From an uncultured Gemmiger sp. (GTDB lineage Bacteria > Bacillota > Clostridia > Oscillospirales > Ruminococcaceae), in the NCBI GenBank assembly GCA_947629015.1, contig CANRCB010000005.1, positions 1-64,000 on the forward strand: DNA of 64,000 nucleotides, given 5' to 3'. Position 1 is the stretch's first letter. The number at the start of each line of letters is the position of its first letter. Of the stretch, positions 12,019-39,059 are shown piece after piece. Made by a program: the position numbers and the translations under genes. The notes below the pieces were generated by a model. It had not been told where the DNA came from, did no database searches, and was given only the letters and a program-made list of their open reading frames with translations.

Positions 12019-13200
12019 ATGCAGGAATTCGGGCTCAAATACGGTACCAACCCCAACCAGAAGCCTTCCCGCATCTATATGGCGGACGGCAGCGCGCTGC
12101 CCATCGAGATCTTGAACGGCAAGCCGGGGTATATCAATTTTCTGGACGCCTTCAACAGCTGGCAGCTGGTGCGCGACCTGAAAAAGGCGCTGGGCCTGCC
12201 GGCCGCGGCCAGCTTCAAGCACGTCTCCCCCGCCGGCGCGGCCGTGGGGCTGCCGCTTGACGATACCCTGCGCCGGATGTACCACATCGCGCCGGATGCG
12301 GCGCTCTCCCCCCTTGCCTGCGCCTACGCGCGCGCCCGCGGGGCGGACCGTATGTCCAGTTTTGGGGATTGGATCGCGCTTTCCGATGTGTGCGATACGG
12401 CGACCGCCAAACTCATCCAGCATGAGGTCTCCGACGGCATCATCGCGCCGGGGTACGAGCCGGAGGCGCTGGCCATCCTGGCCGCCAAGAAAAAGGGCAA
12501 TTACAACGTCGTTTCCATCGACCCCGCCTACACCCCCGCCCCGCTCGAGACGCGCACGGTGTTCGGTATCACGTTCGAACAGGGCCGGCAGGATCTTGCC
12601 ATCACCGCGGATACGATGCTTTCCAACATCGTCACGCAGAACAAGGCCCTGACCGAGGCGCAGAAGCGCGACCTGGTGATGAGCCTGATCGTGCTCAAGT
12701 ACACGCAGTCCAACAGTGTGTGCTATGTGCAGGGCGGGCAGACCATCGGCGTGGGCGCCGGGCAGCAGAGCCGCATCCACTGCACGCGCCTGGCCGGCCA
12801 AAAGGCCGACAACTGGCAGCTGCGCCATATGCCCAAAGTCCTTGACCTGCCCTTCCGCGACGACGTGTCCAAGCCCAACCGCGACAACGCCATCGACGTG
12901 TACATCGGCGACACGCCGGAGGATGTGATCGGCGACGACGTCTGGGCCGAGACCTTTACCGCACAGCCCGCCCCGCTGACCGCACAGGAGAAAAAGGCGT
13001 GGCTCGCGCAGGTGACGGATGTGGCCCTTGGCAGCGACGCCTTCTTCCCCTTTGGGGACAACATCGAGCGCGCGCGCCGCAGCGGCGTGACGGCCATCGT
13101 GCAGCCGGGCGGCTCCATCCGTGATGCCCAGGTCATCGAGACCTGCGACAAATACGGCATCGTGATGGCTTTCTGCGGGATACGGCTATTCCACCACTGA
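12019..13200 (+). CDS. AICAR formyltransferase, stand-alone (PurH C-terminal-type)
   Basis: Predicted to formylate AICAR with 10-formyl-THF. 393 residues, corresponding to the AICARFT part of PurH without the MGS-like cyclohydrolase domain. Motifs: LKYGTNPNQKPSR, ASFKHVSPAGAAVG (the Lys-His catalytic pair), KYTQSNSVCYVQGGQTIGVG with the conserved KYTQSNSV. Ribosome site TAAGGAGG at 12003-12010. Its 3' neighbour is a structured repeat-like RNA element rather than a gene. Confidence 0.9.
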   Translation: MQEFGLKYGTNPNQKPSRIYMADGSALPIEILNGKPGYINFLDAFNSWQLVRDLKKALGLPAAASFKHVSPAGAAVGLPLDDTLRRMYHIAPDAALSPLACAYARARGADRMSSFGDWIALSDVCDTATAKLIQHEVSDGIIAPGYEPEALAILAAKKKGNYNVVSIDPAYTPAPLETRTVFGITFEQGRQDLAITADTMLSNIVTQNKALTEAQKRDLVMSLIVLKYTQSNSVCYVQGGQTIGVGAGQQSRIHCTRLAGQKADNWQLRHMPKVLDLPFRDDVSKPNRDNAIDVYIGDTPEDVIGDDVWAETFTAQPAPLTAQEKKAWLAQVTDVALGSDAFFPFGDNIERARRSGVTAIVQPGGSIRDAQVIETCDKYGIVMAFCGIRLFHH

Positions 13201-13220
13201 GCCTCGCTTCACTCGGCTTT

Positions 13221-13394
13221 AAGAGGGAGGTTCGGCTTGGTTGTCTCGCGCTTCGCGCTCCCCAAGTCGCCTGCACCTCCCCTTAGATTCCCCACCATCG
13301 CAAAAATGCCTTGCGCATACCCTTCGGGCGACTTGCTGCGGCATTTTTGCTCTCGCGGTATCGCCATCGTCGGCGCATGTCCGCCGATGGTGAT
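13221..13394 (+). ncRNA. Candidate structured RNA element, copy 1
   Basis: Lies between the AICAR transformylase gene and purD. Stems seen: P1 GGGAGGT (13225-13231) with ACCTCCC (13275-13281), enclosing an inner hairpin; P3 GCAAAAATGCC (13300-13310) with GGCATTTTTGC (13340-13350); P4 ATCGCCATCG (13360-13369) with CGATGGTGAT (13385-13394). A second copy at 29196-29355 has the same order of stems, similar loops (GGCGACT; GCGCATGTC) and different but still complementary stem bases. It could be an RNA inside the pur transcript or a mobile palindromic repeat. Its function is unknown. Confidence 0.55.
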
Positions 13395-13420
13395 GGATTT
13401 GATATTTTGGGAGGCCCGTT

Positions 13421-14716
13421 ATGAAAATTTTGGTCGTTGGCGGCGGCGGGCGGGAGCACGCCATCATCCGCGCGCTGAAGCAAAGCCCCGACTGTTCCGA
13501 GATCTGGTGCGCGCCGGGCAACGGCGGCATCGGGTATGACGCCCACTGCAAAGCCATCGCCGCCATCGACGTGGCCGCCATGGTCGCCTTTGCGAAGGAA
13601 CAGGCGTTCGATTACGCCGTCGTCGCACAGGACGACCCGCTGGCCCTTGGCATGGTGGACGAGCTGGCGAAGGCGGGCATCCCGGCCTTTGGCCCCGACA
13701 AGGCCGCCGCGCGCATCGAGGCGAGCAAGGTGTTCGCCAAAAACCTGATGAAAAAATACGGCATCCCGACCGCCGGCTACGAGACCTTTGACGACGCTGC
13801 CACCGCCCTTGCCTATATCAAGGCGCAGGGCAAATACCCCGCCGTCATCAAGGCGGACGGGCTGGCGCTGGGCAAGGGCGTGCTCATCTGCCAAAACGAG
13901 GCGGAGGCCGCCGCGGCCCTCAAGGAGATCATGCTGGACAAAAAGTTCGGCGCCTCCGGCAGCCGCGTGGTGGTGGAGGAGTTTTTGACCGGCCCGGAGG
14001 TCAGCGTGCTGGCCTTCTGTGACGGCGTGACCGTCAAGCCGATGGTCTCGAGCATGGACCACAAGCGCGCGCTGGACGGCGACGCGGGCCTGAACACCGG
14101 CGGCATGGGCACCGTGGCGCCCAACCCCTATTACACGCCCGCCATCGCCGCGCGCTGCATGGAGGAGATCTTCCTGCCCACGGTGGCGGCGATGCGCGCC
14201 GAGGGCTGCCCCTTTAAGGGATGCCTCTATTTTGGGCTGATGCTCACCCCAAAGGGGCCCAAGGTCATCGAATACAACTGCCGCTTTGGCGACCCCGAGA
14301 CCCAGGTGGTGCTGCCGCTGCTGGAAAGCGACCTGCTCACCGTCATGCGCGCCACCACCTTTGGCACGCTGGACAAGACCGAGGTCAAATTCCGCGGCGG
14401 CGCCGCCGCCTGCGTGATTTTGGCCTCCGGCGGGTACCCCGTTTCCTACGAGAAGGGCAAGCCCATCGCGGGCCTTAGCGAGGGCCAGCTGCCCGGCGCC
14501 GCCGATGTGACGGTGTACCACGCCGGCACCGCCGTAAAGGACGGGCAGCTCGTCACCGCCGGGGGGCGCGTGCTGGGCGTGGCTGCCACCGCCCCCACCC
14601 TGCCCGAGGCGCTGCAAAAGGCCTACGCGGCGGCGGACAAGATCACCTTTGAAAAGCTGCACCGCCGCAGCGACATCGGCGCGCGGGCGTTGGCCGCGAT
14701 GAAACAGGTAAAGTGA
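13421..14716 (+). CDS. purD: Phosphoribosylamine--glycine ligase (GAR synthetase)
   Basis: ATP-grasp ligase joining glycine to phosphoribosylamine. 431 residues, standard. N-terminal VVGGGGREHAI, central ATP-grasp segment with KADGLALGKGV and GGMGTVAPNPY, metal-binding EYNCRFGDPETQ. GGGAGG precedes the ATG at 13421. It is separated from the preceding purine gene by the 13221-13394 element, so its expression may depend on reading through that structure. Confidence 0.95.
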   Translation: MKILVVGGGGREHAIIRALKQSPDCSEIWCAPGNGGIGYDAHCKAIAAIDVAAMVAFAKEQAFDYAVVAQDDPLALGMVDELAKAGIPAFGPDKAAARIEASKVFAKNLMKKYGIPTAGYETFDDAATALAYIKAQGKYPAVIKADGLALGKGVLICQNEAEAAAALKEIMLDKKFGASGSRVVVEEFLTGPEVSVLAFCDGVTVKPMVSSMDHKRALDGDAGLNTGGMGTVAPNPYYTPAIAARCMEEIFLPTVAAMRAEGCPFKGCLYFGLMLTPKGPKVIEYNCRFGDPETQVVLPLLESDLLTVMRATTFGTLDKTEVKFRGGAAACVILASGGYPVSYEKGKPIAGLSEGQLPGAADVTVYHAGTAVKDGQLVTAGGRVLGVAATAPTLPEALQKAYAAADKITFEKLHRRSDIGARALAAMKQVK

Positions 14717-26870: not shown

Positions 26871-26990
26871 ACAGAGAGGATTAGAGGACGGAACGGGCAG
26901 CCGTCGCCCTTGTTTGGAGATGTGGGAAATGTCGCCCCACCTAATTCTCAAAGGAACTGCGCGGGCCACTTCGGTGGCCCGCGCTTGTTG
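26871..26990 (+). ncRNA. Candidate small RNA, about 120 nt
   Basis: Runs from the predicted start after a strong promoter to a GC-rich terminator. GAGGATTAG (26876-26884) pairs with CTAATTCTC (26941-26949) as an outer stem with one G-T pair. Inside are a GTGGG/CCCAC hairpin (26922-26940) and two alternative small stems near 26886-26909. No ribosome site and good-length ORF fit the region. I do not recognise an Rfam family; 6S, SRP and tmRNA do not fit in length or motifs. Confidence 0.55.
26959..26990 (+). terminator. Terminator of the small RNA
   Basis: GCGCGGGCCAC (26959-26969), loop TTCG, GTGGCCCGCGC (26974-26984), then TTGTTG. The stem is very strong, the T-tract imperfect. Confidence 0.75.
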
Positions 26991-29122: not shown

Positions 29123-29195
29123 CCTTACGCCGTATCTTGCCGCCGGGCCGCAGCGCCCGGCGGTTCAGCGTGTCGAGGAACTCGACACGCTCAAA

Positions 29196-29355
29196 AGAGG
29201 GGCTCGGCTACGCTGGCTTCGCCAGTCCGCCTGCACCCCTCTCACAGGACACACCCCGTCGCAAAAAATGCCGTTCTCATGCCTGAAGGCGACTCGAACG
29301 GCATTTTTTGCTCTGGAGGTATCGGCCTCGTCTGCGCATGTCAGCCGAGGCCGAT
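29196..29355 (+). ncRNA. Candidate structured RNA element, copy 2
   Basis: Follows htpG after two GC hairpins (about 29140-29190). Stems: P1 AGAGGGG (29196-29202) with CCCCTCT (29236-29242) enclosing GGC-TTCG-GCC; P3 GCAAAAAATGCCGTT (29261-29275) with its perfect complement (29297-29311); P4 ATCGGCCTCG (29321-29330) with CGAGGCCGAT (29346-29355). Shared with copy 1 (13221-13394): order and spacing of stems, CCGCCTGCA/TCGCCTGCA before P1's right arm, GGCGACT in the P3 loop, TCTnGnGGT between P3 and P4, and GCGCATGTC in the P4 loop. Function unknown. Confidence 0.55.
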
Positions 29356-29396
29356 GAATTCTAAATACGCCTTTTTTGACAGTCTCTGCCGCCAAG

Positions 29397-29416
29397 CCGC
29401 CGTCCGGCGGTTTTTT
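29397..29416 (+). terminator. Probable terminator downstream of htpG region
   Basis: CCGCC, loop GTCC, GGCGG, then TTTTTT. Short stem but a clean T-tract. Confidence 0.65.
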
Positions 29417-38721: not shown

Positions 38722-39059
38722 GGGGTCGGCGGGAATTTTTTGCACAGAAAAGGGCAGCCGGCCCATGCCGGCGGCCCGTGAGACTGGCGAAAAAGAGGCG
38801 CCAAATGTTTTCTGGAGTGTTTGCAGGGGACGGCCTCCGGACGTCCTGCAAACTTTCCGCCGTTGCAACTTTCGTGGGGCGTCGAGGACGCCGAGGGGCA
38901 GCGAGGCGTTTCGGAGCGCAAGCCCCGGGCTTCGCACCGGAGCCAAGCGGGCCAAAGGCCCCGGCGCTTGGCGCGGAGATCGCCGCCCCCTACGATTTGC
39001 CCTGGAATCGCAGTGGACTTTTTGACACGCCGCAGAGCGGCGGCCCGCAAAGCGGCCGT
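38722..39059. repeat. Non-coding GC-rich stretch with repeat-like pieces
   Basis: No gene is supported in these 338 bases. Visible are hairpin GCAGCCGGCCCATGCCGGC near 38752, TTTGCAGG/CCTGCAAA (about 38819-38854) and CGCCGCCCCCTACG (about 38979-38992). The last resembles the CCCTAC ends of the palindromic repeats at 57538-57722. ACTTTTTGACACGCCGC lies near 39017. It probably combines repeat remnants with the 3' region of pfkA. Confidence 0.4.

Follow-up and report, generated by a model that had tools for sequence, protein, structure and literature searches.

A structured palindromic repeat family of Gemmiger, probably carried in part by terminator-targeting IS1182-type MITEs

Results

Two copies of a three-hairpin element

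The window analysed here, a stretch of 64,000 nucleotides from an uncultured Gemmiger sp., carries two copies of an element of about 170-180 nt that is made up of three hairpins (Table 1). Copy 1 starts 20 nt past the purH stop codon, and copy 2 lies within a MITE on the 3' side of an htpG-like open reading frame. Here and below, the gene names purH, purD, htpG, serS, gyrB, gyrA, rpmH, rnpA and rpsB are by-eye readings of the translations. The bounds of both copies are those of a covariance model, and the core follows the order P1, linker, P3, GGTATC and P4. In the alignment, the P3 stem is formed by an A-tract and a T-tract, and a short T-rich run closes P4.

A sequence-only reading of the window had described two copies with their stems in the same order. 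Both were recovered at these places, and the stems it quoted are correct (P1 13225-13231/13275-13281 and P4 from 13359 to 13395). The long third hairpin, P3, was absent from that description in either copy, as were the transposon-like ends that flank copy 2. Around copy 1 no terminal inverted repeat was seen, and a scan of the window for the right end returned 29372 and 38780 only. The palindromes to the left and right of the MITE around copy 2 share a run of just 9 identical bases, and the target duplication at this copy is therefore imperfect.

Table 1. Positions of the two copies of the element and of their parts in the window.
Feature	Position	Strand	Details
Copy 1 (A subfamily, no terminal inverted repeats seen)	13221-13400	+	between purH (stop 13198-13200) and purD (start 13421)
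P1 hairpin, copy 1	13221-13284	+	AAGAGGGAGGT (13221-13231) pairs with ACCTCCCCTT (13275-13284), inner stem enclosed
P3 hairpin, copy 1	13300-13350	+	GCAAAAATGCC (13300-13310) pairs with GGCATTTTTGC (13340-13350)
P4 hairpin, copy 1	13357-13400	+	loop GCGCATGTC, GGATTT at the end
Terminator-type palindrome, 25 nt	29139-29163	+	3' of the htpG-like open reading frame (ends 29122), left of the MITE around copy 2
Left terminal inverted repeat, MITE around copy 2	29166-29191	+	CAGCGTGTCGA and its own inverse (hairpin P0)
Copy 2 (B subfamily)	29193-29361	+	P1 29193-29202/29236-29243, P3 29261-29272/29300-29311, P4 29318-29361
Right terminal inverted repeat, MITE around copy 2	29372-29386	+	TTTTTTGACAGTCTC
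Second palindrome	29396-29410	+	GCCGCCGTCCGGCGG, right of the MITE around copy 2, partly like the left palindrome

Copy number and distribution

The assembly that holds the window comprises 2.21 Mb in 75 contigs and is 87% complete. Copy 1 used as a BLAST query against this assembly hit 19 additional places at E<=4e-4, in some cases two to a single copy, and missed copy 2. A covariance model (R1) was built from 11 aligned copies, including both window copies, and spans 168 positions with 50 pairs. In the same genome this model returned 59 matches at E<=0.1, the weaker of which include opposite-strand shadows of the palindromes, and 30 with E<1e-12. Extended to 61 genomes, the search matched 28 of the 35 Gemmiger genomes and none of the 26 others, with seven Gemmiger genomes giving no match to the model; the per-genome counts of this search are lower bounds, as stricter filters were applied and at most 46 candidates were scored per genome. 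The core is a genus-specific family of structured repeats.

No Rfam family, HEARO being one of those in the database, matched the element at gathering scores when the whole window was searched, and the three matches at E<=10 over 13100-13500 were all far under threshold. This agrees with the sequence-only reading, which had not recognised a known class. Elsewhere in the window, Rfam placed a skipping-rope RNA at 26877-26948 (64.9 bits), shortly upstream of the htpG-like open reading frame. BLAST with one window copy each matched no phage or plasmid record, and viral contigs gave no match to two exact patterns. Among the literature matches listed, as judged by titles and the openings of abstracts, none described the repeat.

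Covariation in two core families

Covariation was strong in both families of the core. In the A/B family, represented by 31 copies from 11 genomes, 97.0% of 1485 cells are standard pairs, and 27 of 48 pairs show changes on both sides, compared with a shuffled mean of 14.8 and with none of 500 shuffles reaching the observed number. The covariation score of this family was 0.352 against 0.115 for shuffled alignments and at most 0.066 for slid controls, and on five of five measures the 31 copies lay above all 500 shuffles and every slid control. These figures are descriptive only, because the structure comes from the very alignment on which it was scored, and the sequences in it are related. The sister family C has linker variants, the GGTRTC motif and the P4 loop CATGTC in common with A/B, each with exceptions, and differs in P3; here, among 16 copies from 8 genomes, 24 of 51 pairs are changed on both sides versus 13.6 after shuffling.

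The structure and covariation proposed from two copies hold on many, and none of the outcomes named beforehand as damaging to that proposal occurred, whether a lack of further homologues, a lack of significant covariation or, as judged against Rfam, a match to a known family. As for the loops and linkers, CATGTC in the P4 loop is near-fixed across both core families, apart from some variants; the P3 strand GGCGACT is near-fixed in the A/B family, and CGCCTGCA is not fixed across the genus, being replaced in the alignment by TCTCCTGC in several relatives. A loop-loop pseudoknot between GTCGCC and GGCGACT (13264-13271 with 13327-13334) was considered and dropped, as it finds no covariation support in our reading of the alignment: the P1-side partner varies while GGCGACT stays near-fixed.

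A strand test was applied to the variable pairs, omitting those whose commonest type is G.T or A.C (one pair in A/B, three in C). The numbers of G.T and A.C cells were 17 and 20 in the A/B family and 15 and 11 in the C family. With both types about equally common, the test does not favour RNA.

Smaller-scale variation was also observed within the cores. Two variants, AAAGAGG with CTTTGGATTC and AAAAGGG with CTCTTGGACAC, are mostly linked in this way and are found in both the A and the C core family, L283 being an exception, as if modules had been exchanged. Nested short repeats occur at a few spots of the core (P1 loop or arm, linker, P4 loop) in L003, L004, L009, L015, L016, L018, L020 and L070, as well as inside C cores of genomes G004, G021 and G027. 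At gyrB-gyrA, such a nested piece is present in G004 and there is none in G034.

Naked copies behind stop codons

Naked copies, copy 1 among them, have no terminal inverted repeats. Gene context was read from codon-scored open reading frames over 72 copies (30 from the genome of origin and 42 from relatives, not all independent); calling genes by the longest frame was abandoned, as it yielded antisense frames in GC-rich DNA. In 59 of these 72 copies, the gene upstream lies on the same strand as the element. Among the other 13, the right-hand gene is on the opposite strand in 11, which are therefore still at a gene 3' end, and is not in two. Naked A and C copies with an intact start, 27 in number, were classed by hand, and 11 more with an interrupted or cut start were excluded. 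The start falls 0-20 nt past a sense stop codon in 23 of the 27, and the remaining four copies are antisense to the gene on their right.

Three loci were compared between species. A purH-purD query matched 34 of 35 Gemmiger genomes, and the junction was read in 30, four matching genomes not having been fetched. The element is present in three of the 30, namely the genome of origin and G011 (A/B type) and G002 (C type), and absent from 27. Genome G030 is near-identical to G002 at this junction and is empty; the pair suggests a duplication of about 10 bp. At serS, the copy is found in G004, G021 and G013 but not in G034, G027 or G023, with a target duplication of at most about 6 bp in low-complexity sequence, so that no clean target duplication common to the naked copies emerges from these two loci. 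The rpmH-rnpA copy is present in G004, G034 and G021, is reduced to remnants in G027 and G023, and has no recognisable core in G013, which points to decay rather than clean gain at some shared loci. Since some naked copies are common to orthologous loci in several species, they are inherited, and over species divergence naked copies have been inherited, lost and gained. Furthermore, A and C cores occur at identical operon junctions in different species, at purH-purD and, as judged by eye, at L075 and L290.

A fold-back hairpin with the end of the host gene, resembling P0, is striking by eye in front of some naked cores (purH of G011 and G002). As a general feature of naked cores it was rejected (mean score 4.08 over 30 copies, 3.41 in shuffles and 3.65 in nearby windows; median p 0.38), and P0 was retained solely as a part of the copies with terminal inverted repeats.

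Wrapped copies in duplicated hairpins

Many copies in the genome of origin are flanked on the left by an end CAGYGTGTCG..., after which comes the inverse of this end, and on the right by an end resembling TTTTTCGACAGTCTG. The ends of such wrapped MITEs, to which copy 2 of the window belongs, read CAGYGTGTCR... and ...TCGACAGTCTG. At no more than 2 mismatches, the right end was found 52 times in this genome versus 4 times for a reversed control; the exact right end occurs in 15 of 35 Gemmiger genomes (control 0) and amounts to 133 occurrences across the genus. Genome G018 alone has 74 of these in 1.8 Mb, many close to contig edges, an apparent MITE burst. The same right end also closes MITEs with quite different bodies, and the wrapper is thus a MITE system of which the core is one cargo. 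The window itself holds such a MITE with a different body at 38780-39033 on the minus strand, with ends GCGTGTCAAAAAG and TTTTTCGCCAGTCTC and flanked on either side by sequence resembling a hairpin; it lies upstream of what reads by eye as an rpsB-like start.

For the analysis of targets, the 30 of the 52 sites that were fetched and 8 further core copies, minus L031, which has no right end, gave 37 sites, with a left end detectable in 30 and not in 7. In 16 of these 30 sites, at least 12 identical bases, often the whole hairpin, are found both left and right of the MITE, versus 7 of 870 mismatched pairs. Perfect stems of at least 8 bp stand beside 20 of 30 left ends and 17 of 30 right ends, compared with 6 of 600 random windows. 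No duplication of at least 12 bases was found at the other 14 sites, copy 2 being one of them. Wrapped copies thus sit in often-duplicated terminator-type hairpins and have IS1182-type ends. Insertion into a palindrome with duplication of the target is a statistical property of the copies with terminal inverted repeats taken as a set; for single copies, such as copy 2, hairpin entry and duplication are inferred. At L100 and L093 in the genome of origin and at L210 in the complete genome of Clostridiales bacterium CCNA10, the flanking hairpins have the same stem with reverse-complemented loops, as judged by eye, as if one hairpin had been flipped.

A candidate IS1182-family partner

In Gemmiger G011 (isolate Lapin-030__bin95), a transposase gene lies at a contig end, and its left end CAGACTGTCAAATAAG immediately follows a hairpin. 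When named genomes were scanned with the first 117 residues of this transposase, 55 loci were obtained, 12 of which are copies in the CCNA10 genome. One transposase was tested for family membership: the full CCNA10 protein at L209 belongs to the IS1182 family (NF033551, 393.9 bits, cut-off 270) and contains Pfam DUF772 and DDE domains. The related IS elements are mostly about 1.5 kb long and have CAGNNTGTCR inverted repeats at their ends, a pattern to which the MITE ends conform. Out of the 55 related loci, 42 with the left end CAGNNTGTC were examined, and a stem of at least 8 bp was found in the left flank of 37. Where both ends and flanks of related IS copies could be read, the hairpin is duplicated in 9 of 17 (control 1 of 272). 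Two CCNA10 copies, L207 and L208, appear to have exchanged their flanking hairpins, the left hairpin of L207 matching the right one of L208, suggesting recombination between two IS copies.

Within the genus, a search with PF05598 (DUF772) matched 30 of 35 Gemmiger genomes, mostly with one short open reading frame each, the G011 transposase being among these matches, and the G011 protein piece was matched in just one of the 35. G018 gave no match to PF05598. The genome of origin (assembly 87% complete) gave no match to PF05598 or to the G011 protein piece, and no IS1182-type transposase was found in G018, the genome richest in right ends. As both assemblies are incomplete (86-87%), these absences weigh little as counter-evidence.

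Discussion

Taken together, the element is likely a non-autonomous, multi-copy palindromic repeat of Gemmiger that behaves like REP and BOX repeats and in part hitch-hikes on terminator-targeting IS1182-type machinery. In some lineages, the structured core is cargo inside MITEs with IS1182-family-like ends; these MITEs enter the hairpins of intrinsic terminators, and in many cases a copy of the hairpin is then found on either side of them. An IS1182-type transposase may move the wrapped copies in trans. The naked cores could be old wrapped copies whose ends have been lost, or could have been moved by another route, and they turn over, some being lost and others inserting anew. Placed just past the stop codon, P1 would be an mRNA hairpin at the point where the ribosome terminates; it could delay termination, alter the decay of the mRNA or lead to partial termination, by analogy with REPs less than 16 nt from stop codons as treated in the cited part of PMC12306157.

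The sequence-only reading saw in changed pairs and fixed loops the hallmark of a selected RNA or palindromic DNA structure. Such a structure is supported, and we lean to palindromic mobile DNA over a dedicated RNA because the copies are dispersed, some lie inside MITEs bounded by terminal inverted repeats with target duplication, and G.T is not in excess over A.C. That the structure is selected is not proven, because template-switch correction of quasi-palindromes could likewise yield paired changes. The covariation may indeed be mutational as a whole, with template switching or gene conversion between copies perfecting imperfect palindromes and with no selection on the fold being needed, an explanation that we regard as possible, if doubtful. 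It is consistent with the symmetric mismatch counts and with the loops flipped between the sides of some insertions (L100, L093 and L210), which indicate that palindromes are reworked here, but by itself it leaves unexplained the near-fixed loops and linkers beside changing stems.

The conserved, covarying structure of the core and its consistent position relative to genes are also what a cis-regulatory RNA would display. The core could be such a cis-acting regulatory or mRNA-stabilising RNA, selected in the 3' untranslated parts of operon mRNAs and later hijacked by MITEs. This would accord with the sense orientation of most intact-start naked copies just behind stop codons, with the persistence of the serS copy in three genomes with compensated changes, with A and C cores at the same operon junctions, and with the down-regulation of translation by E. 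coli REPs less than 16 nt from the stop codon, as reported in the part of PMC12306157 drawn on here. However, pairing on one strand of RNA should favour G.U, which the nearly equal G.T and A.C counts do not reflect, four naked copies are antisense to their neighbouring gene, and one fifth of the Gemmiger genomes (7 of 35) have no match, so that we consider this account rather unlikely. Also unlikely is a reading that makes the core a selected RNA element close to the stop codons of Gemmiger operons, captured in families B and C by terminator-seeking IS1182-type wrappers; if true, a transposon system would be distributing a ready-made regulatory module for 3' ends to terminators across the genome.

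Mobilisation by a RAYT, an IS200-like tyrosine transposase whose REP the core would be, became attractive after the gyrB-gyrA region of G013, where a complete core stands directly before a RAYT-like gene, and such genes match in 18 of 35 Gemmiger genomes, including two in the genome of origin. It was dropped for missing linkage, as a core match better than E 1e-3 occurs at one place only among 30 RAYT loci (L328 and L342 are the same place in G013), and for the GTAG-tagged palindromes GTAGGGCGGGG...CCCCGCC, of the known RAYT substrate type, that lie in or beside several of these genes; the core has no GTAG tag. We therefore hold this origin to be very improbable. The RAYT-like gene (Y1_Tnp) adjoins gyrB, mostly between gyrB and gyrA, at G000:C15:11700-12167 and in G006, G013, G014, G020, G021, G023, G027 and G028. 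The G027 protein scored 61.5 bits with NCBIfam REP_Tyr_transpos, under the cut-off of 80, and in several genomes GTAG-type REP sequence is read through in the RAYT-like coding frame (IVGRGLDPAV, GSRPRPT). Plain intrinsic terminators that look alike by chance could account for the A-tract/T-tract stem of P3 and the T-rich run ending P4. They have next to no chance of explaining some 170 nt of common order, loops and linkers in dispersed copies, the presence of a number of copies between co-directional genes, or a serS copy that precedes a separate terminator-like hairpin, and as a full account they are already refuted by the homology of model matches across the genus.

We accordingly call the element a structured REP/BOX-like repeat that is in part cargo of terminator-targeting IS1182-type MITEs, and not a new RNA class, in view of the symmetric mismatch test and the Gemmiger genomes that lack a match. 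A covarying repeat family is now described in a gut genus, and statistics over many sites show that, outside staphylococci, IS1182-type elements and MITEs insert into hairpins of the terminator type, which frequently end up duplicated. This provides more than 100 natural insertions (as counted by exact right ends) for testing how the transposase reads hairpins. The family also carries a warning that covariation with fixed loops can mark a mobile palindrome instead of a riboswitch. Should the naked copies influence translation termination, it becomes possible to test in gut Firmicutes whether such repeats tune operons.

Several known systems resemble parts of this arrangement. The bcr repeats of Bacillus cereus are dispersed and have a predicted RNA structure, and by their general description, the basis of this comparison, they are similar in size to the Gemmiger repeat. 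BOX elements have a module structure. The BOX, RUP and SPRITE repeats of Streptococcus pneumoniae are likewise structured repeats that insert into one another and differ in host and ends, a comparison made by description, not by sequence, from the cited portion of a MITE review (PMC10969869). With the REP/BIME sequences associated with RAYTs, as described in the cited portion of Di Nocera 2013 (PMC3733652), the core shares its dispersed, palindromic and intergenic nature, and E. coli REPs are also found within 20 nt of stop codons, as the naked cores are (PMC12306157, in the part cited). In contrast to these sequences of 20-40 bp, the Gemmiger core has about 170 nt and three hairpins, with neither GTAG tag nor RAYT linkage.

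Copy 2 and its kind, which have terminal inverted repeats of the IS class and lie in terminator-type hairpins, resemble the IS1182 family (IS1272/TnSha1). According to the cited parts of Furi 2016 (PMC4923244) and Wan 2017 (PMC5678879), IS1272 and TnSha1 of staphylococci target hairpins, several of which are confirmed terminators, and the hairpin is replaced or partly deleted with no duplication, whereas at the Gemmiger MITEs it is often duplicated. Duplication of the whole stem-loop, as in the Gemmiger MITEs, is drawn by Wan et al. as pathway b in the cited part of PMC5678879. Unlike the staphylococcal cases, the Gemmiger MITEs carry a covarying core of about 170 nt, which also occurs as naked cores without terminal inverted repeats.
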